Of a stretch of DNA of 64,000 bases, positions 2,755 through 14,387 are shown piece by piece. Origin of the DNA: an uncultured Oscillospiraceae bacterium (lineage in GTDB: Bacteria > Bacillota > Clostridia > Oscillospirales > Oscillospiraceae); the NCBI GenBank assembly GCA_947581795.1, contig CANPVS010000001.1:124001-188000 (forward strand), in the 5' to 3' direction. Positions within the stretch are counted from its first letter, which is position 1. Each line of letters starts with the position of its first letter. Under the pieces are notes generated by a model that saw nothing but the letters and a program-made list of their open reading frames with translations, did no database searches and had not been told where the DNA came from. A program made the translations under genes and the position numbers.

Positions 2755-3346
2755 CAAAGCGATAGGCGATCTGCCGGAAGCGGGCGCGCTATACGACGAT
2801 TCGCTGCTGGTGGTGGAACAGCAGTCCGAGGCGCGGAGCATCCGTGGGTCGCTGGTAAAACAGTATGTGGACGAGGCGGCACAGCCCTACGTGGACGAAG
2901 CGGCCAAGAGCGCCAGGGACTCGGAGATCAGCAGAGAGGCCGCGATGAAAGCACAACAGGCAATCGAGAATATGACGGTGAGCGCGTCCACGCTGCCCGC
3001 CGGGAGCGACGCCACGGCGACAAAGTCTACAACAGGGGACTCATTTTCCATCCGGTTCGGGATCCCGCGCGGTCCGCAGGGAGCGGCAGGTCCGGCGGGC
3101 CCGCAGGGAAAGGAAGGCCCGCAGGGAATCCAAGGGCAGAAGGGGGAGACCGGAGATACCGGCCCGGAAGGCCCTCCTGGTATCCAGGGACCGCCGGGTC
3201 CGGCTGGGACAGCCACCGTCGTCCCGACGGAAGGGGCCTATGTGTTCAGCGTGGAGGAAGGTCACCTTATTCTGCACTACACGGGAGAGAAAGCGCCGGA
3301 CTTCTCCATTGGAGAGGACGGGCACCTGTATTTCAACGTGGCCTGA
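2747..3346 (+). CDS. Collagen-like phage tail-fibre protein
   Basis: This 199-aa protein has an N-terminal region (1-100) beginning [12 protein letters not shown], with a short Ala-rich helical segment. A Gly-X-Y tract (about residues 103-152: [13 protein letters not shown] and onward) follows, then a small C-terminal beta-rich head ([23 protein letters not shown]). The N-terminal 'IGDLP...DDSLLVVEQ' segment is typical of phage fibre attachment regions. Gly-X-Y repeats in phage proteins form trimeric triple helices. It is coupled to the 55-aa gene upstream and followed by a second collagen-like fibre gene. Specific receptor unknown. Confidence 0.8.
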
Positions 3347-3371
3347 TAATAACAAAAAAGGAGAGTTTTAT

Positions 3372-4685
3372 ATGCCTACAGTAGATCTGGGTGAAGTCGT
3401 CGGGCCGCAGGGTCCCCAGGGAGAGCGTGGTCCGGAAGGCCCGACTGGCCCCGTCGGTCCGGAGGGAAAACAGGGGCCTGTGGGGCCGGCCGGGGGAGTG
3501 GATTCCGTGAATGGCTCACAGGGCGATGTAGTTATTGGTAATGTAAATCTGTTTGCCATGTGTAATTCTATGGCGGCAATGATAGATTCAACGGGCGAAC
3601 CATATCCGAGTAGTTATGCCAATCCTTCCTTGACTGATTATATACCAGTGAATGAGGGCGATATATTTACTGTTCAAAACTGGATAACAGCCGATCCTGG
3701 TGATAAAAATTATGTAATGATAGATTCGTGTTTTTACACGGATAAAACCGGTTCGTCACTGATACCAGGTGCGTTTAAACGTTACGTTGGTGGGGTTCCC
3801 GGTTATAACCATGTCGTTTATCAGATAGGACCCGCGCCATCCGGAGCGAAGTATCTTCGTGTTGCTTGCAGATTGTACAATGATGGGCGTGTTAAATTGG
3901 AACGCGGTACCGTCGCAACAGACTGGTCCCCAGCACCTGAGGACTACCTCGGCCCGTTCAACGCATACAACATTCCCAACATGCATCGTAATATCTTCCG
4001 AGGTAAGAATCTCGGTTCTACGCTCACCGATACGCAGAAAGCAGCGATAGCTGCTGGCACGTTTGAGGGGCTTTATTTGGGTGACTACTGGACGATAAAC
4101 GGCCACACCTGGCGAATCGTAGACTTTGACTACTGGTACGGCCAGGGTGATACGTCCTGCACCACACACCACGTGGTCGTGATGCCCGACGCCCCGCTGT
4201 ACTTTTGTCCGATGAACAACAAGATCGAAGAGGCCAACACCGTTGAGGGTGGTTATGCGCTTTCCGAGATGCGTCAAACCGGCCTCGATCAGGCTAAGGA
4301 AATAGCGACGACCGATTTTGGAACGAACGTGCTGAACCACCGGATCATCATCAGCAATGCCGTCAAGGACGGTCATGTGTCCGGTTATCTCTGGGACGAC
4401 TCGACCGTCGAACTTTGCTCCGAGTGGCAGATGTATGGTGCTTCTGTTTATAATGCTATGAACGATGGTGCGACTCGTCCTACACTGTTCACCATCGATC
4501 AGAAGCAGTTCGCACTGATGCAAGCTGTTCCCTGGTTTATCAACCCCGCACGTCAGAATTTCTGGCTGCGTGACGTCGTCTCGTCGTCAGGCTTTGCCAA
4601 TGTGGCCTACGGCGGCTATGCGGCCGGAAGTGGCGCTAGTAATACGGGCGGGGTTCGCCCATCTTTCGGTGTTACTGGCAATTAG
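3372..4685 (+). CDS. Phage receptor-binding fibre with C-type-lectin-like, DGR-target-like C terminus
   Basis: ATG at 3372 follows AAAAAGGAGAG. The 437-aa protein starts with a Gly-X-Y collagen tract (residues 8-42), then a beta-rich middle, and ends in a formylglycine-generating-enzyme/C-type-lectin-like fold. The end reads NFWLRDVVSSSGFANV, then a stretch rich in Gly/Ala/Tyr/Ser/Asn, then GGVRPSFGV. The WLR...GVRP layout is characteristic of variable proteins diversified by diversity-generating retroelements and of DUF6273 domains. The variable-looking codons (GCC TAC GGC GGC TAT GCG GCC GGA AGT) are what A-mutagenesis of an AAC/AAT-rich template would give. No template repeat or reverse transcriptase is seen in this window. 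The stretch around 3540-3960 is visibly richer in A+T than its neighbours, consistent with modular acquisition. Confidence 0.75.
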   Translation: MPTVDLGEVVGPQGPQGERGPEGPTGPVGPEGKQGPVGPAGGVDSVNGSQGDVVIGNVNLFAMCNSMAAMIDSTGEPYPSSYANPSLTDYIPVNEGDIFTVQNWITADPGDKNYVMIDSCFYTDKTGSSLIPGAFKRYVGGVPGYNHVVYQIGPAPSGAKYLRVACRLYNDGRVKLERGTVATDWSPAPEDYLGPFNAYNIPNMHRNIFRGKNLGSTLTDTQKAAIAAGTFEGLYLGDYWTINGHTWRIVDFDYWYGQGDTSCTTHHVVVMPDAPLYFCPMNNKIEEANTVEGGYALSEMRQTGLDQAKEIATTDFGTNVLNHRIIISNAVKDGHVSGYLWDDSTVELCSEWQMYGASVYNAMNDGATRPTLFTIDQKQFALMQAVPWFINPARQNFWLRDVVSSSGFANVAYGGYAAGSGASNTGGVRPSFGVTGN

Positions 4686-4703
4686 AAAAAGGAGGAATAG
4701 AAA

Positions 4704-5093
4704 ATGGACGATTTCTACGATGATCATAGCCCGACTGAGCCCAGTCCCTATGACCCACTGACGCCTATAGAACCTGAGCCGGTGGAAGAGATACTGTATG
4801 CGGTCACGTTGTCCGACGGAACTACGCTTTCCGATCTGCATCTCAACGGAAACAACTTCGTATCCGACACCCCCGTGACGAAAGAACAGTTCGACTATAA
4901 CTGCTCTCCTGTGACTATTTCAGATGGAGAAATCACCGAGACTTACGAGAATATGGAGCTGGTTCATCTTCAGACTACGAACGGGCAGTATTACTTCGTG
5001 TTGCGGGATATTCCGCCGGAGGAGCTCTGGAAACGAAAGGTCACGGCGGATGTGCAGTACATCAGCATGATGACTGAAGTGGAGCTGGATTAA
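4704..5093 (+). CDS. Phage-cassette protein of unknown function
   Basis: This 129-aa acidic protein starts at ATG 4704, 8 nt after AAGGAGG. Its N terminus is Asp/Pro/Glu-rich (MDDFYDDHSPTEPSPYDPL) and the rest is predicted beta-rich (AVTLSDGTTLSDLHLNGNNF, MELVHLQTTNGQYYFVLRDI). It lies 18 nt after the variable fibre gene and before xkdX, so a fibre accessory or chaperone role is possible. Many variable-protein genes are followed by a small accessory gene, but this one does not look like Avd. No family recognised. Confidence 0.6.
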   Translation: MDDFYDDHSPTEPSPYDPLTPIEPEPVEEILYAVTLSDGTTLSDLHLNGNNFVSDTPVTKEQFDYNCSPVTISDGEITETYENMELVHLQTTNGQYYFVLRDIPPEELWKRKVTADVQYISMMTEVELD

Positions 5094-5105
5094 AGGAGGA
5101 CAAGC

Positions 5106-5246
5106 ATGGAGCATAGTGCAAAATACGAAGAGGTTCTTGGGTTCTATAAAAATCATCTCTGGAGCGAGCGGATGACCCGGAACGCAGTCGTAAAGGGCTG
5201 GATAACGGAGGAAGAGTTCCAGGAAATCACCGGGAAGAAGTCATAA
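5106..5246 (+). CDS. xkdX: XkdX family phage protein
   Basis: A 46-aa protein starting at ATG 5106 after AAAGGAGGACAAGC. The pattern FYKNHLWSERMTRNAVVKGW followed by ITEEEFQEITG matches the XkdX family of PBSX-like phages (W...M..NAV.KGWIT.EE..EITG). XkdX sits between tail-fibre and lysis genes in many Firmicutes prophages, exactly as here. Its molecular role is not established. Confidence 0.85.
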   Translation: MEHSAKYEEVLGFYKNHLWSERMTRNAVVKGWITEEEFQEITGKKS

Positions 5247-5268
5247 CGATCGACGGGAGAGCGATAAA

Positions 5269-5526
5269 ATGAGCGATGCTGTGTTGTCCGCCCTTATTAC
5301 CGGCGGACTGGCTTTGGCGGGTATCGTGATCACCGTCCGGGCCGGCAATAATGAGCTCCAGCATAAGATCGAGGTCTCGCAGGCGATAACGGATACCAAA
5401 CTGGATGAACTGACACGAGAGGTCCGCCTGCACAACAATTTTGCGCAGAGGGTACCCGTGCTGGAGGAGAAGATGGACTCCGCCAATCACCGGATAGCCG
5501 ACCTGGAGAGCAGGGGCGGAAAATAA
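5269..5526 (+). CDS. Membrane-anchored coiled-coil phage protein, possible lysis accessory
   Basis: This 85-aa protein has one N-terminal membrane segment (about residues 4-24, VLSALITGGLALAGIVITV) and a long charged helix with heptad character (ELQHKIEVSQAITDTKLDEL through VLEEKMDSANHRIADLE). This architecture resembles XhlA-type or holin-associated proteins. It lies immediately before the holin. The exact family is not certain. Confidence 0.6.
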   Translation: MSDAVLSALITGGLALAGIVITVRAGNNELQHKIEVSQAITDTKLDELTREVRLHNNFAQRVPVLEEKMDSANHRIADLESRGGK

Positions 5527-5540
5527 GGAGGGAGGTACAT

Positions 5541-5765
5541 ATGATGAAGCTCAACGACAAGGTATATGACGTTCTCAAGTGGGTGGCGATGATCGTCATC
5601 CCGGCGCTGGCCACGGCTTACGTGGGCCTCGCGGGCGTGTGGGGCTGGCCCTATCCCAACGAGTTGGCCAAGACGGCGGCCATCGTGGACACGCTGCTGG
5701 GCGCGCTGCTGGGCATCAGCACAGCCCAGTACAACAAGGAGGTAAATAGAGATGACATCGGCTAA
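5541..5765 (+). CDS. Phage holin
   Basis: A 74-aa protein with a short charged N terminus (MMKLNDKVYDVLK), a first membrane segment (WVAMIVIPALATAYVGLA), a turn (WGWPYPNE) and a second membrane segment (AAIVDTLLGALLGIS), ending in a charged tail. The pattern matches small r1t/Dp-1-like holins of Firmicutes phages, which permeabilise the membrane for endolysin release. A strong ribosome site (AAGGAGGGAGG) precedes it. It overlaps the endolysin start by 14 nt, a normal holin-lysin arrangement. Confidence 0.85.
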   Translation: MMKLNDKVYDVLKWVAMIVIPALATAYVGLAGVWGWPYPNELAKTAAIVDTLLGALLGISTAQYNKEVNRDDIG

Positions 5766-6675
5766 ACAGGTGGTAGACATCGCGCTGACTGAGGTGGGCT
5801 ATCGCGAGAAGGCGAGCAACTCCAACCTGGACAGCAAAACCGGCAACAGCGGTTCCGCCAACTGGACCAAGTACGCCAGGGACCTGGCGAGCGCCGGGTA
5901 TTACAACGGAAACAAGAACGGATTCGAGTGGTGCGACGTGTTCGTGGACTGGTGCTTTTTCAAGGCGTTCGGCAAGACCGAGGGGCAGCGCATCCAGTGC
6001 CAGACCGGGGAGCTGGGTGCGGCGTGTCCTTACTCCGCCGGGTATTACAAGGTCCAGGGGCGGTATGATAAAAACCCGAAGGTGGGCGACCAGATATTCT
6101 TCCAGCAGGGCAACAGTTTGGTGCACACGGGGATCGTGGTGGACGTCACAGACAGCGAGGTGACCACGGTGGAGGGCAACAGCGGCAACCAGGTAAAGAA
6201 GAACGTTTACAGCCGACGCAGCGCCTACATCGCCGGGTACGGGCACCCCTGGTACGACAGTGCTTCCGGCGGCTGGCTCCATGAAAATGGCGGGTGGAAG
6301 TTCAGGAACCCCGCCACGGGTGAGCTCGTGGCCGATATGTGGGTAGGCACCAACAAGGGCCTGTGGTATTACATCGGCGAGGACGGCATGCTGTGCCACG
6401 GTGGGCTCACGTTCGTACACGAGTGCAAGGGCATCAATGAGAGCGGCGCGGACCAGGGGGTGTTCCCGGCCGGGTGGTTCTACTTCCAGCCGGACAACGA
6501 AAACGGGACTATCGGGGCGATGAAGACCGGGGAGCAGGTCGTTGTGAAGTCCACCACGGAGAAGGTGGCCGGGGCCAATGTGGCGGTATTCAGCGAAAGG
6601 CATGACGGCCACTTCGGCGCGTGCGTGAGCATGAACGGGAAAGCGATGAAGAATTACACGGACCTGCCGGCATGA
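5752..6675 (+). CDS. CHAP-domain endolysin with wall-binding repeats
   Basis: The 307-aa protein starts at ATG 5752 inside the holin gene. Residues 1-165 form a CHAP/NlpC-like cysteine amidase or peptidase. The catalytic Cys is in FEWCDVFVDWCF, the His in LVHTGIVVDV, and the assisting acidic residue in TVEGNSG. The C-terminal half carries aromatic wall-binding repeats (GGWLHENGGWKFRN, GLWYYIGEDGML, GWFYFQPDNENGTIGAM, FSERHDGHFGAC) that mirror the surface protein ending at 968. It would cleave peptidoglycan at the end of a lytic cycle; with no other phage structural genes around, it may now be domesticated or belong to a remnant. Bond specificity is not deducible. Confidence 0.9.
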   Translation: MTSAKQVVDIALTEVGYREKASNSNLDSKTGNSGSANWTKYARDLASAGYYNGNKNGFEWCDVFVDWCFFKAFGKTEGQRIQCQTGELGAACPYSAGYYKVQGRYDKNPKVGDQIFFQQGNSLVHTGIVVDVTDSEVTTVEGNSGNQVKKNVYSRRSAYIAGYGHPWYDSASGGWLHENGGWKFRNPATGELVADMWVGTNKGLWYYIGEDGMLCHGGLTFVHECKGINESGADQGVFPAGWFYFQPDNENGTIGAMKTGEQVVVKSTTEKVAGANVAVFSERHDGHFGACVSMNGKAMKNYTDLPA

Positions 6676-6679
6676 GGGC

Positions 6680-6708
6680 AAAAAGTCCCGCCGCGAAAGC
6701 GGCGGGAC
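6680..6708 (-). terminator. Terminator of the blaI-envelope operon
   Basis: On the minus strand GTCCCGCCGC-TTTC-GCGGCGGGAC is followed by TTTTT. It lies 17 nt after the last gene of the operon. Confidence 0.85.
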
Positions 6709-6724
6709 CGGAGAAAGACGATGC

Positions 6725-7954
6725 TCACATGATCGCCTGACCCTGCATGAACCAATAATTGCAGGCGAGGAAGAATATTAGCTCGGCCAGCAGGAGCAGC
6801 GCCCGGATACAGGGGTTCTTGAGCCGGCCCACGCACAGGTAGAGGGGCAGGCAGCCCAGCATGTACCGGCCGCCGCTGATAAGCCAGCCGGCGGTATAGC
6901 ACATGCCCAGGTATGCCGTGCCGTAGAGGATGTAAGCGTTGTCCAGCTCCCGGCGCCAGCCCGCAATGAGGAGCGCGGCGGCCAGGAAGTAGAGGACCGC
7001 CTGGGGCCAGTAGATCCAGTTGGCCAGGTCGGGGTACTTCACGCCCATGGTGAACTGCTGGGCCAGGGTGTCCCCCAGCCACTGGACGGACTGGTACCAG
7101 GGGGCGGCGGCCTCATAGCCCTGGAAGGCGAAGAAGCTGCCGCACACGGCCTTGTTGATGTAAAGATATATGCCGAAGCCCAGGATGGGGCCCGCCAGGG
7201 CCAGCATCCGGGGCGGCCATTTTTTATCTTCGCGGGCCGCCCGCCAGGCGCAGTAGACCCCGGGGAGGAGAAGGAGCATGCCCTGGATGCGGGTCAGGGC
7301 GCAGAGAAAGCCCACGCATCCCGCCTCCAGCCACCGCCGCTCCCGGAGGAAGTACAGGCACGACACGGTCAGCAGCAGGAAGAGGCCCTCGGTGAACACG
7401 CCTTGGGCGAAGAAACCGAAGGGGTAGAGCCAGTAAGCGAGGAGCGCCGCGCCCGGGTGGGCGCACTCTTTTTTTGCCAGCTTCGCCAAGAGCACGGCGG
7501 AAAAACCGTAGCACACCTGGGAGATGAGCATGGCCGCCAAGGGCAGTCGGCCGCCCAGGAGGGCGCCCACGAAGCGGATGGTCAGGGGGTACAGGGGATA
7601 GAACACGATGGCGTTGGCCATGTCTCCCGTGGGGACATAGCCGTTTTCAGCGATGAAGAGGTAATAGGTGGCGTCGCCGGCCTTGGTGAATCGGGCCCAG
7701 TAGTGGACGAAAAAACCGGCGGCGGTGTGGTTCAGAGCCACGTAGGCGGCGAAGGAGCCCAGCCACAGGACGGCGAGAGAGGCGGGAAAGATACACCACC
7801 AGGGCCAGTTGACGGGGCTGGCCTTCTCCGGCAGGGGGCGGAGGGCCGGGGCTTTCAGCTCCACGCCCAGAAGCTCCCGGAGAGCGCGGATGGCCAGCAG
7901 GGCGAGCAGCGCCAGCATGAGAGCGCTGGACGACAGCCAGAGTATCAGTCGCAT
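6725..7954 (-). CDS. PIG-V-like (GT-C) membrane mannosyltransferase
   Basis: This 409-aa polytopic protein has about 9-10 membrane segments. It carries the PIG-V/mannosyltransferase-II signature: a loop with DATYYLFIAENGY and FYPLYPLTIR, where the Asp is the expected catalytic residue of GT-C enzymes. Bacterial members transfer mannose or another sugar from a polyprenyl-phosphate donor on the outer face of the membrane. It is the last gene of a five-gene operon with BlaI, BlaR1, another GT-C-like protein and an acyltransferase, implying a job in decorating a wall polymer, lipid or protein. Donor and acceptor are unknown. Confidence 0.75.
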   Translation of the reverse strand: MRLILWLSSSALMLALLALLAIRALRELLGVELKAPALRPLPEKASPVNWPWWCIFPASLAVLWLGSFAAYVALNHTAAGFFVHYWARFTKAGDATYYLFIAENGYVPTGDMANAIVFYPLYPLTIRFVGALLGGRLPLAAMLISQVCYGFSAVLLAKLAKKECAHPGAALLAYWLYPFGFFAQGVFTEGLFLLLTVSCLYFLRERRWLEAGCVGFLCALTRIQGMLLLLPGVYCAWRAAREDKKWPPRMLALAGPILGFGIYLYINKAVCGSFFAFQGYEAAAPWYQSVQWLGDTLAQQFTMGVKYPDLANWIYWPQAVLYFLAAALLIAGWRRELDNAYILYGTAYLGMCYTAGWLISGGRYMLGCLPLYLCVGRLKNPCIRALLLLAELIFFLACNYWFMQGQAIM

Positions 7955-7979
7955 AAATGACCTCCCAAGGAAAGGCGGC

Positions 7980-9119
7980 TCAGGTAACGGTCGGGGCGCG
8001 GTCCCGGTTCAGCCGGCGCAGGAGTTTGTCCAGATACTTGTAGAATAGCTCCAGCAGCACCGACGAGCCCAGGGACAGGGCCAGGAGAATGGCCAGGTCG
8101 ATCCACACGCAGCGGGTGCAGTAGACCAGCTTGGCGGGGCCCAGGAAGTAATAGCAGAAGAAGGTGTGGATGAGCCAGATGTTGGTGCTGTGTTGGCCCA
8201 GGAAGGCGAAGACGAGCTTGAGGCCGCGGAGGCTGTCGAAGAAGGCGGAGAGGAACACTGCCAGGGCGGGCACCAGGACCACGTCGGCGTTGGCCATGTC
8301 CGTCACCACGTAGGCCCGGCAGAAGAGCACCGCCGCCGCGCCTGCAAAGGCGGTCAGGGGCCGCAGCCACACCGGCATCCGGACGCAGAGGCGGTCCTTC
8401 AGGGCGGCGAGCAGATCATATTTGGCGAAGACGACGCCGGAAAAGAAGGCGGGAGCGTATTTGTTCAGTTCGAAGAAGCGGTAGTAGTAGAGGTTGGAAC
8501 TGAGGCCCGCCAGGGCGGGAATTTTGGCCAGCCCCGGCGCCACGGCCTGGGACAGGATGTCGATGCCAAACACCAAAAAGACGTCCCGGAGGAGGCTGGC
8601 GCGCTTTTCTGTGGCGTGGCAGAAGAGACATCCCAGGGGCAGCACGCACAAATAGGCGCCAAAGAACCACCACTCGCTGTTGAAGGTGGCCTTGTAGCCG
8701 GTGAAGTTGCCCGCCAGGTCGATGAGCAGCTGCTTGGCGGAGGTGAACTGGAACCGGACGCAGAAGGGGCGGAGCGCATCCGTGCCGTCGGCGAAAAAGA
8801 GGAGACCGATCGGGACGAAGATGACGAATACCTTCCAATATTTCCGGTAGAGGCTCGCAATGGCGTCCAGCAGCCGGAAGGAGCCGGCCTGCCGGCGCTT
8901 ATAGAGGCCGTAGCCGCCCAGGAAGAAAAACAGGGGCACGCATACCAGCGCGTTCAGCGCCAGCTCTCCCAGCCAGCCCTTCTCCACGAAGCCGGGGATC
9001 AGGGAGACGAACCCGGGAAAGTTCAATGGCCAGCGGTCGCCGGTATAGGCCAGGTGGTGCAGCAGCATGAAGAGGATGGCCGCGCCCTTCAGGGCCTTCG
9101 TGTCCTGCCGTGTGAACAT
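7980..9119 (-). CDS. Acyltransferase-3 family membrane protein
   Basis: The 379-aa protein begins MFTRQDTKALKGAAILFMLL and continues HHLAYTGDRW, the helix-1 His motif typical of the acyltransferase-3 (OafA/NodX-like) family. About ten membrane helices follow, with 'PLFFFLGGYGLYKRRQ' and 'GQHSTNIWLIHTFF' as family landmarks. Such enzymes move acetyl or other acyl groups across the membrane onto surface glycans. It lies 15 nt after the upstream glycosyltransferase and 25 nt before the PIG-V-like gene, in one operon. Acyl donor and acceptor unknown. Confidence 0.8.
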   Translation of the reverse strand: MFTRQDTKALKGAAILFMLLHHLAYTGDRWPLNFPGFVSLIPGFVEKGWLGELALNALVCVPLFFFLGGYGLYKRRQAGSFRLLDAIASLYRKYWKVFVIFVPIGLLFFADGTDALRPFCVRFQFTSAKQLLIDLAGNFTGYKATFNSEWWFFGAYLCVLPLGCLFCHATEKRASLLRDVFLVFGIDILSQAVAPGLAKIPALAGLSSNLYYYRFFELNKYAPAFFSGVVFAKYDLLAALKDRLCVRMPVWLRPLTAFAGAAAVLFCRAYVVTDMANADVVLVPALAVFLSAFFDSLRGLKLVFAFLGQHSTNIWLIHTFFCYYFLGPAKLVYCTRCVWIDLAILLALSLGSSVLLELFYKYLDKLLRRLNRDRAPTVT

Positions 9120-9134
9120 ATCCCGCGCCTCCTC

Positions 9135-10361
9135 TCAGGTGTTGAAGTACATGTGCATGGCCCCGTAGACGTTGAACGCAACGGCGAGACCGCCGACGAG
9201 AAGCTCCCAGGTGGCCGGGCGCTTCGTCCCCCGCCTGGCCAGGAACATATAGGCGAAGGGCAGCATGTCGCAGGTGTAGCGGGCGCCGAACTGCCAGGCG
9301 CCCAGGGTCCGGTGCATACAGGTGAGCAGAAGCTCCAGGAGCATCCCCGCGGCCAGAAGGATATCCCCAAAGGCCAGATCCTTTTTGACCGCCAAGATCA
9401 GAAAACGGATGAGGTAGATGAGGAACAGGGGATTGGCGACATAGAACATGAACCCCTGGAAGAGGGGGATGTCCAAAAGCCCGTCCTGAAAGCGGATGGG
9501 CTCGAAGAGCAGCCGCTTCAGGTTCGGCCAGAGGTAGCTTATGTGGAACTGGCCGTGCTCGGCCCGCATGAACTCGGGGAGATAGTTGTGACCGAATTCC
9601 AGGGGGTCATGGAAGCGGACGAAATTGTAGGCCATGTAGCATGCGCCGATGAGGATGGGCCCGACGACGCATTTCCACTGGGCCAGGCAGCTTTTGAAAA
9701 AGCCGCCGTGCTGTTCCCGCTCCTCCCAGGCGAAGGCGAGGGCGAAGACGGGCAGGAAGATGGCGCTGAGAGGCCGGCAGCCCACCGCCAGGGCCAGGAA
9801 GGTGGTGGAGAGGGCCTTTCTGCTCTTCAAGGCGCAAAGCACCGCCGCGAGACACATCACCATGTTGAGGGCCTGGGCCTGGAACCACACGCCGGCGTTG
9901 GTGGTCATCCACATCATGTTGCTGCCCCAGACGCACACCAGCGCCCAGAAGGCGGAGATCCGGGGGCTCCGGCCCACCGTAAGCATGATTTCATAGGCCA
10001 GGGCAGCGGCGATCAGGCCGTAGCAGCCGATGATCACGTTGTTGGGCGTCTCCAGGCCGAACAGCGCCACGAAGGGCAGCATAAGCACCGAGGGCAGCGG
10101 TGGGAAGGACACATAGTACCGGCCCTGGTAGATGGCCAGTTCCAGGTAGGTGTAGTTCTCCGGGTCGGCCACGTAGGTCCGGCCCTGGAGCCAGTTCCAG
10201 GCCTGGAGAGAGTAGCTGTCCCAGTACTGATGCTGGAACAGCGTCCCGCCCATGAGGTCACTCAAAAGGAAATATCCCAGCCCCATCACGGCCAGCAGCG
10301 CCAGGAGTGTGCGGCTCCGCTCGGGGAAGGCTTTGTTCAGTTTGTTCGTTTCCATAGGCAT
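9135..10361 (-). CDS. Polytopic GT-C-like glycosyltransferase
   Basis: The 408-aa product (MPMETNKLNKAFPER start) has about ten hydrophobic helices. The first extracellular loop contains QYWDSYSLQAWNWLQGR and a YYVSFPPLPSVLMLP segment, reminiscent of ArnT/PMT-type GT-C enzymes that use lipid-linked sugars. The start at 10361 is 1 nt after the blaR1 stop, so translation is probably coupled; no separate strong ribosome site is visible, and Met at 10355 is an alternative. The gene is the third in the blaI operon. The assignment to GT-C rests on topology and loop motifs. Confidence 0.6.
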   Translation of the reverse strand: MPMETNKLNKAFPERSRTLLALLAVMGLGYFLLSDLMGGTLFQHQYWDSYSLQAWNWLQGRTYVADPENYTYLELAIYQGRYYVSFPPLPSVLMLPFVALFGLETPNNVIIGCYGLIAAALAYEIMLTVGRSPRISAFWALVCVWGSNMMWMTTNAGVWFQAQALNMVMCLAAVLCALKSRKALSTTFLALAVGCRPLSAIFLPVFALAFAWEEREQHGGFFKSCLAQWKCVVGPILIGACYMAYNFVRFHDPLEFGHNYLPEFMRAEHGQFHISYLWPNLKRLLFEPIRFQDGLLDIPLFQGFMFYVANPLFLIYLIRFLILAVKKDLAFGDILLAAGMLLELLLTCMHRTLGAWQFGARYTCDMLPFAYMFLARRGTKRPATWELLVGGLAVAFNVYGAMHMYFNT

Positions 10362-10362
10362 T

Positions 10363-11775
10363 TCAAGAGAATAGTGAGCCGCTGTCGGCGGGCTCGGGCG
10401 CCGGGGTCGCCGGCGAAGTGGGCGTGAGGGGGTCCGGGCCATCATGGACAGGCGTGGGGAGCGTCTCGGCCGTCCAGAGGACGGGAGAGGGCGTGGGCTC
10501 GGCGGGGATATTATCTGGCGTGGGGAGCGGGTGTTCTTCCTCCGTGTCCGGCGTGGGGACCGGCTCCGCCTCCATGGGGGCGGGGGTGCTCCCCGGGGGC
10601 GGCGTGGGCGTGACCGGGTCGGGGTCCGTCACGGCTGGCTCCTCCGTCACAGGCCGGGGCGTGGACGGGGCCCATACCAAGGCCTGATAGACCTGCGCCG
10701 GGGGCGCGGGTGAGGCTGTGGGGAGCACCGGGGCGGAGGGCTCCGGCGTGGGGAAAACCGTCTCGCGGACGGGTTCTGCCGTGGGATCAGGGGCGACGAG
10801 CAAGTCGGTTTCCTGGGGCGGCGGAGTGGGCGCCGCGTACAGGGCGGAGACAGGATGCGGGGACCAGTGCTCCGATTCCGGATGGGCGGCGTTTTCCGCC
10901 GCGGCGGCGAACACCGTGGCGGAGGAGAGCACCAGCGCTGCGGCCAGCGCCACGCTCACGTCCCCGGCGGGGCGAAAGCGCATGATCTGGCGTATCCGCT
11001 CCCGGACAGCCATGGCCCCGAAGCCGCTGAGCAGCGGGTCCGGCGCACGGCGCTCCTCCATGGCGATGAGCGCCATGGCATAGGAGGCACGGCCGTCCCG
11101 TGTCCGGCGGAGGACCGCCTCGTCGCAGGTAAGCTCTATGTCCCGGCCCGCCAGGATATACATGACCCAGGCCAGGGGGTTGAACCAGTGCAGGCACAAA
11201 GCCAGAGCCAGCAGATATTTGAAGGGGATATGCCCCCGGCGGATATGAGTCAGCTCGTGGGCCAGGATGTAGCCCAACTGCCGCCGGTCCCGGCGGTCCA
11301 GATCGGAGGGAAGCAATATCACCGGCCGGAAAAAGCCGTAGGTCAGGGGCGTGCCCAGACCCTGGCACAGACGGACGGACACAGTCCGATGGGGTACCAG
11401 GCCGCGACACAGCCGTTCCACGCCCGGGTCATGGAGGGGCAGAGCCTCCCGGTAGCGGCGAAGGCTCATAAGGTGGCCCCGCAGGAGCCACCCGGCGCAG
11501 ACCGCCGCGCCGGCCAGCCACAGGACCGTCGCCCAGGGGAAACGGGCCGCCGCTGGAGCAGGGGCCGCCTGGGCCACAGCGCGGTACACCGCGGACACCG
11601 GCGCCGCCGGGGCGGGCACGGTGAGGCTGAGGGGCAGGACCATCCGCGCCGCCGCCACCAGCCACAGCGCCGTGAAGGTCCGCTTGGGCAGCCGCTCCAG
11701 GGCCAGGGCCCGCAGAAGCGCCGTGAAGGCGATGAGTACTGAGGCGTGGGCCGTCATCTCCAGGAGCGTGGTCAT
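10363..11775 (-). CDS. BlaR1/MecR1-type M56 metallopeptidase with Pro/Thr-rich tail, no penicillin sensor
   Basis: The 470-aa protein has N-terminal membrane helices, then a cytoplasmic gluzincin domain with HELTH (173-177) and the downstream ELTCDEA (214-220), the M56 zinc-site pattern. It ends with a membrane helix at about 273-290. The usual extracellular penicillin-binding sensor domain is absent; instead there are about 180 residues rich in Pro, Thr and Glu. In the family, signal reception triggers cleavage of the BlaI-type repressor. Here the signal cannot be a beta-lactam bound by the classic sensor. The gene overlaps blaI by 4 nt (ATGA) and is followed directly by envelope-modifying genes. 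Confidence 0.9.
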   Translation of the reverse strand: MTTLLEMTAHASVLIAFTALLRALALERLPKRTFTALWLVAAARMVLPLSLTVPAPAAPVSAVYRAVAQAAPAPAAARFPWATVLWLAGAAVCAGWLLRGHLMSLRRYREALPLHDPGVERLCRGLVPHRTVSVRLCQGLGTPLTYGFFRPVILLPSDLDRRDRRQLGYILAHELTHIRRGHIPFKYLLALALCLHWFNPLAWVMYILAGRDIELTCDEAVLRRTRDGRASYAMALIAMEERRAPDPLLSGFGAMAVRERIRQIMRFRPAGDVSVALAAALVLSSATVFAAAAENAAHPESEHWSPHPVSALYAAPTPPPQETDLLVAPDPTAEPVRETVFPTPEPSAPVLPTASPAPPAQVYQALVWAPSTPRPVTEEPAVTDPDPVTPTPPPGSTPAPMEAEPVPTPDTEEEHPLPTPDNIPAEPTPSPVLWTAETLPTPVHDGPDPLTPTSPATPAPEPADSGSLFS

Positions 11776-12128
11776 TTTAAGTCCTCCACCAGCTTTTTGA
11801 GGCCGTCGATCTCCTCCCGGCTCAGGCGTTTGCGGCCCAACAGGGAGGCCACCAGCCGGTCCGCCGCCCCGCCGTACATCTTATCCACCAGCTCGTCGGT
11901 GGCGTAGGCCTGAGCCTCCTCCCGGCTGACCAGGGCGTGGCAGAGAAAGCCCGGCTCGGAGCGGGCAACGGCTCCCTTGTCCAGGCACTTCTTGATGACT
12001 GTGTAGGTGGTGGTCTTGGACCAGCCCACCTGCTCGCCCAGGACCTGGGCGATGGTCTTGGCGCTGGCGTCGCCCCGGTCCCACAGGACCTCCATCACCC
12101 GCAGCTCTGAATCGAACAGCGTTATCAT
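11772..12128 (-). CDS. blaI: BlaI/MecI family repressor
   Basis: This 118-aa winged-helix protein begins MITLFDSELRVMEVLWDRGD and contains SAKTIAQVLGEQVGWSKTTT as the recognition helix region, plus a C-terminal dimerisation helix (VDKMYGGAADRLVASLLG), standard for BlaI/MecI. Met at 12128 is preferred because GGAAGG lies 9 nt upstream; the Met at 12134 is only 3 nt from it. Family members repress their own operon and are cleaved by the partner M56 peptidase. Two dyads in the promoter region are its likely operators. Confidence 0.9.
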   Translation of the reverse strand: MITLFDSELRVMEVLWDRGDASAKTIAQVLGEQVGWSKTTTYTVIKKCLDKGAVARSEPGFLCHALVSREEAQAYATDELVDKMYGGAADRLVASLLGRKRLSREEIDGLKKLVEDLK

Positions 12129-12144
12129 AGACATGACCTTCCAT

Positions 12145-12199
12145 TTCTATCCAAATAGAATCATATCTATATTCTATGCTGGTAGAAGCTGTTTGTCAA
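12145..12199 (-). promoter_or_regulatory. blaI operon promoter with two dyad operators
   Basis: On the minus strand TTGACA (12194-12199), a 17-nt spacer and TAGAAT (12171-12176) make a near-consensus sigma-A promoter. Two inverted repeats of the form TTCTAT-N4-ATAGAA occur: 12145-12160 is perfect and 12172-12187 has one mismatch. The upstream one covers the -10 element and spacer and the other lies just past the start site; their centres are 27 bp apart. This is the expected layout for BlaI autorepression. Confidence 0.8.
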
Positions 12200-12228
12200 G
12201 AAGAAACGCCGCCCTCCCGGGCGGCGGA
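12200..12228 (-). terminator. Terminator after the DUF4173 gene
   Basis: Minus-strand CCGCCGCCC-GGGA-GGGCGGCG is followed by TTTCTTCTT. It separates the DUF4173 operon from the blaI promoter. Confidence 0.75.
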
Positions 12229-12232
12229 ATTC

Positions 12233-13690
12233 TTATTTTGCGGCAAGGCAGGCGCTGAGGCCCCGGTGAGTCCAGGGGATATCCCGGTGCGTGGCCTCCA
12301 GCCGGGCGATGGCGTCGTCCAGGTCAGGGTCCGCGCAGCCCGCCGCCTTCAGGTCCCGTAGGGCGGGAAGGGCATTGGCGGAGAGGGAGGATAAATATGT
12401 TATGTCTACTTCTTTCAACTGTCCGGACAGGTAGTGGTCCACATTATAATTGGTAATGACGCGGCCTGGTCCGACAAGGCACAGCAGGCACCACAGAGCC
12501 AGGGCGAAACCGCCCGCCGCCCGGAAGAAGTTAAAATCGGGGCGGTACAGCTTCCACACCGCCGCCAGGATGCAGAAGGCGATGACGGCCATGGCCCAGA
12601 GGGTGGCCAGGCGCAGCACGCTCAGGCCGTAAACATGGATATAGAGCTGCATCCGCCGGAAGGCGGAGGCCAATATCACGGCGGTCAGGGCCAGCAGAAG
12701 CCCCAGCAGCGCCCGCAGAAGTTTCCCGCCGGGGGAGGCAAAGCGGGCCTTGTCCGCGGCCAGCAGGCACAGGGTCATGTTGATGGCCGCCACAGCCACC
12801 AATTGGAAGAATCCCGAGCGGGCGTATTCCGCCCAGCCCCCGGCCATGGCCGCCTCCGACCCACCGCCGAAGAGGTATTTTATCTGGATATAGCAGAAAA
12901 TTATGTAAACCATATCCAGTAATCCAATCACCGGCAGGAACAGTGCCGCCCGGCGAGGCTTGGGAGAAGGGGTTTCCTCTCCAGGCGCGGGGGCCTCCCG
13001 GATGTAATAGAGGGCCGAAGCCAGGCCCAGCGCCAGGGGCAGCACCCGCACTGCCCGCATGACGGCGTCCTCCGGCAGGGCGGACAGGTCCAGCCGGGCG
13101 AAGAGGCCGCCGAACACCGCGTCCGCGCTGGCGAGAAGCCATAGGACTACCCCCAGCATCGGAACGGCGATCAGCAGGCCCAGAGCGGCCTGGCCCAGCC
13201 GCCGCTTGCCGCCATGGAACGCCCGGCCCAGGGCCCGGAAGGGGCAGCCCAGGCGGCCGAAGAAGGCGATGAAGCTGAGGAACGCCGTGGCCAATAGGGC
13301 ACTGGCCCGGCCGGGGGCCAGTTGGCCGGACAGGGCAAAGGTGGCCATGGCGGCGGTGAGGAGGATGGTAAAGCAGTTTATCAGCGTGAACCAGTTTGAA
13401 TCGTACAGCGCCGCGCTCACGCCCAGGGCCAGGGCCGCCGCCGTGCAGAAGACGCTCCCGGCATTGATATGTGCCTTGCGGCCCAGGACGAGAAATACCG
13501 CCGCGAAGTGGACCGCCACCAGGACCAGCACTCCCAGGTGGGGCAGGCCGAAGTCCACCAGCCGCCCCGGGTCGAAGCAGGTCCAGAACAGCCACGCCAG
13601 GCCCAGCGCCAGGGCAGGGATGGCCCCGTCACGCCAGGTCAGGGGCGGAGTATTAGTTTCCATAATGTTGCTCTTTGCTGTCTCGTCCAC
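12233..13690 (-). CDS. DUF4173-domain polytopic membrane protein
   Basis: This 485-aa protein has roughly twelve membrane helices and ends with a soluble motif (NYNVDHYLSGQLKEVDITYL followed by ALPALRDL) seen in DUF4173 proteins. A GTG start at 13690 has GGGAGG 8 nt upstream. It is the last gene of a three-gene operon (DUF2975, HTH regulator, DUF4173) with a 3-nt gap after the regulator. No biochemical role is known; a link to membrane or cell-size adjustment is only guesswork. Confidence 0.75.
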   Translation of the reverse strand: MDETAKSNIMETNTPPLTWRDGAIPALALGLAWLFWTCFDPGRLVDFGLPHLGVLVLVAVHFAAVFLVLGRKAHINAGSVFCTAAALALGVSAALYDSNWFTLINCFTILLTAAMATFALSGQLAPGRASALLATAFLSFIAFFGRLGCPFRALGRAFHGGKRRLGQAALGLLIAVPMLGVVLWLLASADAVFGGLFARLDLSALPEDAVMRAVRVLPLALGLASALYYIREAPAPGEETPSPKPRRAALFLPVIGLLDMVYIIFCYIQIKYLFGGGSEAAMAGGWAEYARSGFFQLVAVAAINMTLCLLAADKARFASPGGKLLRALLGLLLALTAVILASAFRRMQLYIHVYGLSVLRLATLWAMAVIAFCILAAVWKLYRPDFNFFRAAGGFALALWCLLCLVGPGRVITNYNVDHYLSGQLKEVDITYLSSLSANALPALRDLKAAGCADPDLDDAIARLEATHRDIPWTHRGLSACLAAK

Positions 13691-13693
13691 CGC

Positions 13694-13897
13694 TCATTCC
13701 TCCCGGAATTCCAGGATGTCCCCGGGCTGACAGTCCAGAGCCCGGCAGATGGCGTCCAGGGTGGAAAACCGCACAGCCTTGGCCTTTCCCGTCTTGAGGA
13801 CGGAGAGATTGGCGATGGTGAGGCCCACCCGCTCCGCCAGCTGGGTGAGGCTCATGTGCCGCTTGGCAAGCATCACATCTAAGTTTACATAAATCAT
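13694..13897 (-). CDS. XRE/Cro-type HTH regulator (YozG-like)
   Basis: A 67-aa single-domain HTH protein: MLAKRHMSLTQLAERVGLTI, then ANLSVLKTGKAKAVRFSTLD and AICRALDCQPGDILEF. This is the compact regulator usually encoded next to DUF2975 membrane proteins. It is cotranscribed with the DUF2975 gene upstream (10-nt gap) and DUF4173 downstream. An 8-bp perfect palindrome in the operon promoter (14438-14455) is a candidate operator, suggesting autoregulation. Confidence 0.85.
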   Translation of the reverse strand: MIYVNLDVMLAKRHMSLTQLAERVGLTIANLSVLKTGKAKAVRFSTLDAICRALDCQPGDILEFREE

Positions 13898-13907
13898 AAC
13901 TTCGCCC

Positions 13908-14387
13908 TCATATGGTCAGGTCGTTCTCGTCCTGCAGGTCGGCGGCCTTCAATGTCAGGTGGCTCAGCGCCGCCGCGGCGGCGGTGGCGGTCACGCCTAT
14001 CACGGCGACGACCAGCAGGAGTACGTAGAACCACTCGCTGCCATTGGCGAAGGGTATGCCGTCCCGGAAATAGGCGTAAAGGCCCCACAGGATGACCAGC
14101 ACCGTGTCCGTCAGGGCGCAGAGACTGATGCGCCGGAGGCCTTTGGCGTTCTCCACGCAGAAGCTGTTGTTTTTGCCGATGCGGGCCAGAATGCGCCAGG
14201 CGTCGATCATGGAGATCAGCACCGGTATCAGCAGGCAGAAACGCAGCAGGCATACCGGCCGATCCCAGCCTGGCTCGATGAAAGACAGGATGAATTCCTT
14301 TCCGAACCAGTAGAGGAAGAAAAGCCACACCGCACCGCACAGGACCACCACGGCGCGCAGGAGAATGGAGAGTTCTTTCTGTTTCAT
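13908..14387 (-). CDS. DUF2975 membrane protein
   Basis: A 159-aa protein with four membrane helices and the internal segment FCVENAKGLRRISLCAL, typical of DUF2975 ('F...N...LR.I..'). DUF2975 proteins are nearly always paired with a small HTH regulator, as here, and may modulate it at the membrane. First gene of its operon; the start is preceded by GGAGGTG. Specific function unknown. Confidence 0.85.
   Translation of the reverse strand: MKQKELSILLRAVVVLCGAVWLFFLYWFGKEFILSFIEPGWDRPVCLLRFCLLIPVLISMIDAWRILARIGKNNSFCVENAKGLRRISLCALTDTVLVILWGLYAYFRDGIPFANGSEWFYVLLLVVAVIGVTATAAAAALSHLTLKAADLQDENDLTI

Follow-up and report, generated by a model that had tools for sequence, protein, structure and literature searches.

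BlaI and BlaR1 are commonly presented as a switch for drug resistance; here, a version of this pair without the penicillin sensor appears to control conserved, dispersed surface glycosyltransferase genes in gut bacteria. The locus lies in a 64,000-nucleotide stretch of the genome of an uncultured Oscillospiraceae bacterium (GenBank assembly GCA_947581795.1, contig CANPVS010000001.1, positions 124,001 to 188,000; hereafter the window), in which a five-gene operon encodes a BlaI-type repressor, an M56 membrane metalloprotease, a glycosyltransferase that we call GT1, an acyltransferase-3, and a PIG-V-like protein. The comparisons of predicted operators and gene content reported below give good support for a BlaI/M56 switch that lacks the sensor and has a conserved but scattered regulon of GT-C-type glycosyltransferases. 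The locus comprises the following features.

6680..6708, minus strand: intrinsic terminator, GTCCCGCCGC-TTTC-GCGGCGGGAC-TTTTT, full stem assigned by eye
6725..7954, minus strand: PIG-V-like protein with a predicted GT-C fold (structure model)
7980..9119, minus strand: acyltransferase-3 (Acyl_transf_3, by Pfam)
9135..10361, minus strand: GT1, predicted GT-C-fold glycosyltransferase, weakly LA_3751-like; likely start at 10355 from orthologues
10363..11775, minus strand: M56 membrane metalloprotease, the protease part of BlaR1 without the sensor (open reading frame and Pfam)
10366..10905, minus strand: Pro/Thr/Ala-rich C-terminal tail of M56 (residues 291-470), no sensor domain by Pfam
11245..11259, minus strand: HELTH zinc motif of M56 (residues 173-177), with ELTCD at residues 214-218
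11772..12134, minus strand: blaI, BlaI/MecI-type repressor (open reading frame and Pfam); likely start at 12128 from orthologues
12145..12160, no strand assigned: predicted operator 2, palindrome TTCTATTTGGATAGAA, between the promoter and the blaI start
12171..12199, minus strand: predicted sigma-70-type promoter, TTGACA-17-TAGAAT, 11 of 12 consensus positions
12172..12187, no strand assigned: predicted operator 1, 16-bp palindrome TTCTACCAGCATAGAA, overlapping the -10 box
12207..12226, minus strand: terminator of the upstream DUF4153 gene, marking the operon boundary (terminator scan)

From blaI to the PIG-V-like gene, the five genes are separated by -4, 1, 15, and 25 nt; the orthologue-supported starts of blaI and GT1 each lie two codons inside the open reading frame starts. 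A scan restricted to the sigma-70 consensus returned three promoter-like sites in the region, compared with 1.2 ± 1.1 in shuffled sequences, and within the operon it listed no minus-strand site besides a weak one at the blaI start (12153-12124). The terminator at the end of the operon (6708-6680) follows the last stop codon and has a 10-bp stem, a TTTC loop, and a run of five T residues. Weak terminator-like sites also occurred within coding sequence, the total for the region being 12 versus 6.0 ± 2.2 in shuffles. The preliminary description of this DNA, made from the letters alone, had proposed five genes with these gaps running from one promoter to one terminator; all of these elements were recovered, and the scan placed no minus-strand promoter between the genes.

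A dyad at its own promoter is a trait of the BlaI/MecI family, and here it is present as two predicted operators (12145-12187), both 16-bp matches to TTCTAYNNNNRTAGAA with starts 27 nt apart. We searched the window's own genome (2.29 Mb, 62 contigs, 84% complete; operon on contig C1) for this pattern. Perfect matches occurred in two places only, the operon promoter and C19:33360-33393, each time as a pair. The C19 pair overlaps the -10 element of a TTGACA-17-TATATT promoter and ends directly before an operon encoding a 433-residue paralogue of the PIG-V-like protein (35% identity to the window protein; PIGV2) and a 492-residue PMT_2 protein (PMT). The C19 operon is therefore another candidate target of the switch, unlinked to the first and encoding enzymes of the same type. 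The preliminary description left the paired operator unreported, and the second operon lay outside its view. Divergent from the C19 operon is a single open reading frame that joins an ammonium transporter to a P-II domain (L012 7226-9340, minus strand).

To place these sites in context, we compared 35 genomes of the genus, the relatives' contigs coming from rabbit-gut (Lapin) and other Oscillospiraceae metagenome-assembled genomes. BlaI orthologues were present in 14 genomes at 72-100% identity, all other BlaI proteins reaching 59% at most. Thirteen of the 14 have a blaI-M56-GT1 cluster, and in the last (G310) a short contig carries blaI-M56. We counted G325 as a 15th BlaI/M56 genome; its M56 gene lies at a contig edge before PIGV2-GT1, with blaI out of view. 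Perfect paired operators were found in 10 of the 35 genomes (reversed control, 0/35), all of them BlaI/M56 genomes: 10/15 versus 0/20 of the others (Fisher 1.6e-5, a test that ignores relatedness). At the family level, 14 of 300 genomes, including the window's own, carried perfect pairs (control, 0/300).

Remote operator pairs stand before GT-C genes or the gene of an M1-peptidase lipoprotein in 12 of the 15 BlaI/M56 genomes; two of these pairs are imperfect. The pairs lie upstream of PIGV2-PMT in the window's own genome, G326, G216, and G294, and upstream of PMT in G310. Perfect pairs precede the M1-peptidase gene in G316, G311, G318, G319, and G325; in G321 and G320 the pair at this position has one and two mismatches, respectively, each confined to one palindrome. 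All 10 remote units with a perfect pair have a TTGAC -35 box before the pair, which itself overlaps the -10 element. One contig of G325 ends with operator-M1-PIGV2 and another starts with the end of PIGV2 followed by PMT, likely representing a single operator-M1-PIGV2-PMT operon. The M1-family lipoprotein (for example L144 7107-8504), which had no match in the window's own genome, carries HExxH in 7/7 proteins read and a lipobox-like start in 6/7; the Pfam M1 domain was found in 3/3 scanned.

Gene order around GT1 is also conserved. Orthologues of GT1 (E < 1e-160) occur in 27 of the 35 genomes, plus one fragment (G301) and one 35% homologue (G305). Among the 27 clusters, M56 lies upstream in 14 (blaI visible in 13), so the neighbourhood proposed in the preliminary description does recur in relatives. 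The PIG-V-like gene follows downstream in 19 clusters and the acyltransferase is present in 13; PIGV2 precedes GT1 in 6. Three of the remaining 13 clusters are undecided or remnants (G307 and G308, near contig ends; G324). In G316, G311, and G321, the order blaI-M56-PIGV2-GT1-AT3-PIGV forms a single row, which places side by side enzyme types that the window's genome splits between C1 and C19.

Both regulatory proteins were assigned by Pfam. BlaI scored 81.1 bits against the Penicillinase_R Pfam domain (cut-off 22.6) and aligned to MecI over query residues 8-116; the M56 protein scored 136.6 bits against its Pfam peptidase domain (cut-off 31), and a sequence search against solved structures gave no M56 match at 0.001. 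Its residues H173, H177, E214, and D218 show the same spacing (41 residues from HELTH to ELTCD) as BlaR1 H201/E242, the corresponding BlaR1 residues being listed as H201, H205, E242, and D246 in the cited excerpt (PMC9834060). An LLSGFG stretch in 11 of the 14 M56 orthologues read resembles the BlaR1 autocleavage loop LSHS-F; the M56 proteins of G323, G312, and G317 have an HEFVH motif and TGL instead of SGF.

The missing sensor is what sets this protease apart. We detected no Pfam transpeptidase match in the window M56, and its score against NF000326 was 72.2 bits versus a cut-off of 400. Its C-terminal tail is 180 residues long with 27% Pro, confirming the Pro/Thr/Glu-rich tail described earlier; tails of 54-180 residues with 22-31% Pro were found in 11 orthologues (the G325 protein being incomplete at its start), and three orthologues have tails of 33-39 residues with 10-15% Pro. 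The M56 protein of G310 is cut by a contig end, placing its tail outside the data. By length and composition, these tails offer no room for a sensor of the penicillin-binding protein (PBP) type in any of the 14 orthologues read, which bears out the earlier claim of a peptidase without a beta-lactam sensor. On these sequence criteria the M56 protein is not a BlaR1 proper, as the sensor domain is absent. The Pro-rich tail was considered as a folded sensor and rejected, its length (33-180 residues) and Pro content (10-31%) varying widely across orthologues. Because it has shrunk to 33-39 residues in three of them, the tail is unlikely to be an essential sensor; with no sensor domain and a tail this variable, the membrane part of M56 is the likelier candidate. 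In the two paralogous M56 proteins of the window's own genome, the C-terminal regions are longer and, by eye, not Pro-rich.

The window proteins GT1 and PIG-V-like gave no Pfam match at E 0.01, and we therefore turned to structure prediction. Both models show a GT-C glycosyltransferase fold, with Pmt4 and OST among the best structural neighbours and 6-14% identity to solved structures. Thus the GT-C-like character named in the preliminary description was recovered from the models and not from Pfam. The last gene, which it called a PIG-V-like mannosyltransferase, encodes a protein with a predicted GT-C fold; the window protein has no match to Mannosyl_trans2 (PIG-V, GT76, PF04188), which 5 of 25 relatives match (best 4.2e-5), and 9 of the 25 match PMT_2. 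Asp-46 of GT1 is at least 90% conserved in 30 homologues, and Asp-94 of the PIG-V-like protein is invariant in 25 sequences; the loops carrying these residues are probably extracellular. GT1 and PIG-V-like scored weakly against the NCBIfam families LA_3751/LA_3752 (NF047440) and AZOBR_p60025 (NF046093), at 40.3 and 29.3 bits versus cut-offs of 200 and 150, and are not members because these scores fall far below the cut-offs. The acyltransferase scored 60.7 bits against Acyl_transf_3 (cut-off 31).

Taken together, we consider it probable that the locus is the BlaI/M56 hub of a small, dispersed glycosylation regulon. BlaI dimers would occupy the two palindromes at the operon promoter, which cover its -10 region and start, as well as the second pair over the distant promoter, and would repress both operons, as the sequence and conservation of these sites suggest. 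An envelope signal perceived by the membrane part of M56 would activate the protease, which may cut BlaI and itself by the BlaR1 mechanism, given that the catalytic motifs and their spacing are kept. Derepression would raise BlaI and M56 together with several GT-C membrane glycosyltransferases (by their modelled folds), and these may use sugars on polyprenyl-phosphate donors to decorate, outside the membrane, a glycopolymer, glycolipid, or protein of the surface. The acyltransferase-3 and, in relatives, the M1-peptidase lipoprotein would be accessory outputs. The regulated surface-remodelling system proposed earlier is supported in its wiring, namely the gene order, the double-operator promoter, and the remote operons that share this operator in relatives; the acyltransferase is an accessory.

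Several observations weigh against this model. Ten of the 27 GT1 genes have no BlaI/M56 upstream despite at least 2 kb of sequence there, so this regulation is dispensable, and the acyltransferase is present in only 13 of the 27 clusters. The BlaI-bearing genomes G312, G317, and G323 showed no remote site in a genome-wide search for perfect pairs alone. No operator was found within about 1.5 kb of 2 of 9 M1 copies (G324, G326) or 3 of 9 PMT copies (G314, G307, and the second copy of G216); one further PMT copy (G325) lies at a contig edge. Evidence from one operator is weaker than from a pair. Allowing one mismatch gives 10 operator-like sites in the window's own genome versus 5 with the reversed control, which leaves isolated imperfect sites with little meaning. 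As this genome is 84% complete, targets may also be missing from it. The best Foldseek E value for the PIG-V-like model was only 1.5e-3, and of the GtrA-type proteins elsewhere in the genome, two above and a third below the cut-off, none is linked to the operon. Finally, 47 GT1 loci outside the genus had no BlaI/M56 in the fetched stretch, which was short for some of them.

These 47 loci were among 54 (L177-L230) that we screened by tblastn out of 74 in a GT1 contig scan, the other 20 (L157-L176) being genus contigs. Seven of the 54 were genus contigs as well, with BlaI/M56 in only one (L202); five of the outside loci, from Candidatus Fournierella, read DUF4153-GT1-PIGV. A GT1 tree of 31 rows (26 of the 27 genus orthologues, G095 being left out, and five outside rows) has a clade of 22 rows, with partly unresolved inner forks, across which the BlaI-bearing rows are dispersed. 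G313, which has no BlaI, nests with the BlaI-bearing G312 and G317, and G324 retains before GT1 one operator, a decayed second, and a short BlaI-like stretch, apparently a blaI remnant (L125 1-264). BlaI/M56 may thus have been ancestral and lost several times.

Could the locus nevertheless serve a beta-lactam or wall-damage response, in which M56 senses peptidoglycan fragments or wall damage rather than binding the drug, and the products of the GT-C enzymes have a protective role? The BlaI/M56 ancestry speaks for it, as do the authors of the Clostridium thermocellum study, who in the cited excerpt interpret BlaI regulons as beta-lactam responses (PMC8457756), and the title of a Bacillus licheniformis paper, "A Peptidoglycan Fragment Triggers beta-lactam Resistance". 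However, neither the operon genes nor the remote target genes scanned showed a beta-lactamase or PBP domain, and the 14 orthologues read have no space for a PBP-type sensor. These points weigh against the reading but remain compatible with wall-damage sensing. We regard this reading as unlikely, though worth keeping in view. A second alternative is that the GT-C enzymes glycosylate proteins, in a manner resembling O-mannosylation, and not a polymer or lipid. The PMT_2 matches in the remote operon and among the PIG-V-like relatives, the structural neighbours Pmt4 and OST, and the secreted lipoprotein in the regulon of relatives are consistent with this. Yet GT-C folds are common to polymer, lipid, and protein enzymes, Listeria monocytogenes GtlB, a lipoteichoic acid enzyme, is also listed as PMT-2 in the cited excerpt (PMC8035078), and identities to solved structures as low as those found here say nothing on the acceptor. 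We regard this reading, too, as unlikely. That BlaI/M56 controls only itself, with functionally unlinked GT genes carried along by readthrough, could draw on GT clusters that exist without BlaI and on a paralogous BlaI whose operator pairs lie beside its own blaI in 20/20 genomes and nowhere else in 19, but is largely refuted, and in our judgment very improbable, because unlinked GT-C operons carry the same pair over their promoters only in genomes with this BlaI/M56.

A more speculative extension of the hub model is a self-referential sensor, in which the Pro/Thr-rich M56 tail, or a glycan that it touches, is modified by the regulon's own PMT-like GT-C enzymes. We think this quite improbable. 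If true, the switch would read the state of surface glycosylation, closing a feedback loop, and a BlaR1-type protease would have a signal of a new kind.

The window's genome encodes two additional BlaI/M56 pairs, L013 (on C11) and L014 (on C27), whose promoters carry palindromes of the CACTAYN4RTAGTG type and, on C11, GTCTATN5ATAGAC. An ACTAYN4RTAGT pair occurs in 20 of the 35 genus genomes, each time beside the paralogous blaI (reversed control, 1/35), and additionally away from it in G322 only. The three BlaI systems are thus apparently kept apart by operator sequence. Outside the genus, paired TTCTAYN4RTAGAA sites were found in 11 genomes, at loci that also have M56. In G112, from another genus, such an operator pair lies before the gene of an SLH-domain protein adjoining blaI-M56 (L045 7234-8496).

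Two neighbouring regions were also noted. Upstream of the operon lie minus-strand genes for DUF4153 and DUF2975 membrane proteins (12233-14387). Adjoining the operon terminator on its other side is what we read as a phage-like cassette on the plus strand (3240-6675), with a weak collagen-repeat match below the cut-off, a small coiled-coil protein, and a CHAP-domain protein; by eye, G326 has a similar small open reading frame at this position.

The staphylococcal system combines dyad operators over the promoter with linked repressor and protease genes, an arrangement also predicted here. The locus further resembles BlaI-BlaR1 and MecI-MecR1 of staphylococci and Bacillus in its BlaI/MecI-type repressor and in its M56 zinc protease, where HExxH and ExxxD are spaced as in BlaR1; unlike them, it has no penicillin-binding sensor domain, and its predicted targets are GT-C glycosyltransferases instead of a beta-lactamase or PBP2a. 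Similar in layout are the BlaI regulons of C. thermocellum, with paired inverted-repeat operators and one to three operons including their own (PMC8457756, excerpt). The BlaI_0696 motif given there, inverted GTCTAT repeats five nucleotides apart, is matched by our C11 operator, and because paired sites are reported there at every target, the paired layout was already known for clostridial BlaI. The difference is in the operator letters, the half-sites GTCTAT and GACTAT in that excerpt differing from the operators here, and in the targets, read there as a beta-lactam response or hypothetical, whereas here they are GT-C genes conserved across species. On the enzyme side, the CsbB-GtcA-YfhO and GtlA-GtcA-GtlB glycosylation systems (PMC8035078, excerpt) likewise rely on a GT-C membrane transferase that works outside the membrane; one of these transferases is of PMT-2 type. 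Here, in contrast, there is no linked GtrA flippase, no donor synthase was identified (no search was aimed at one), and several GT-C genes fall under the predicted BlaI/M56 switch. Our search of open-licence papers, covering titles and abstract beginnings, returned none linking BlaI/M56 to GT-C glycosylation genes. The locus offers a concrete system for asking what is sensed by M56 proteases that lack a penicillin sensor, and the model predicts that uncultured gut Oscillospiraceae decorate their surface inducibly.

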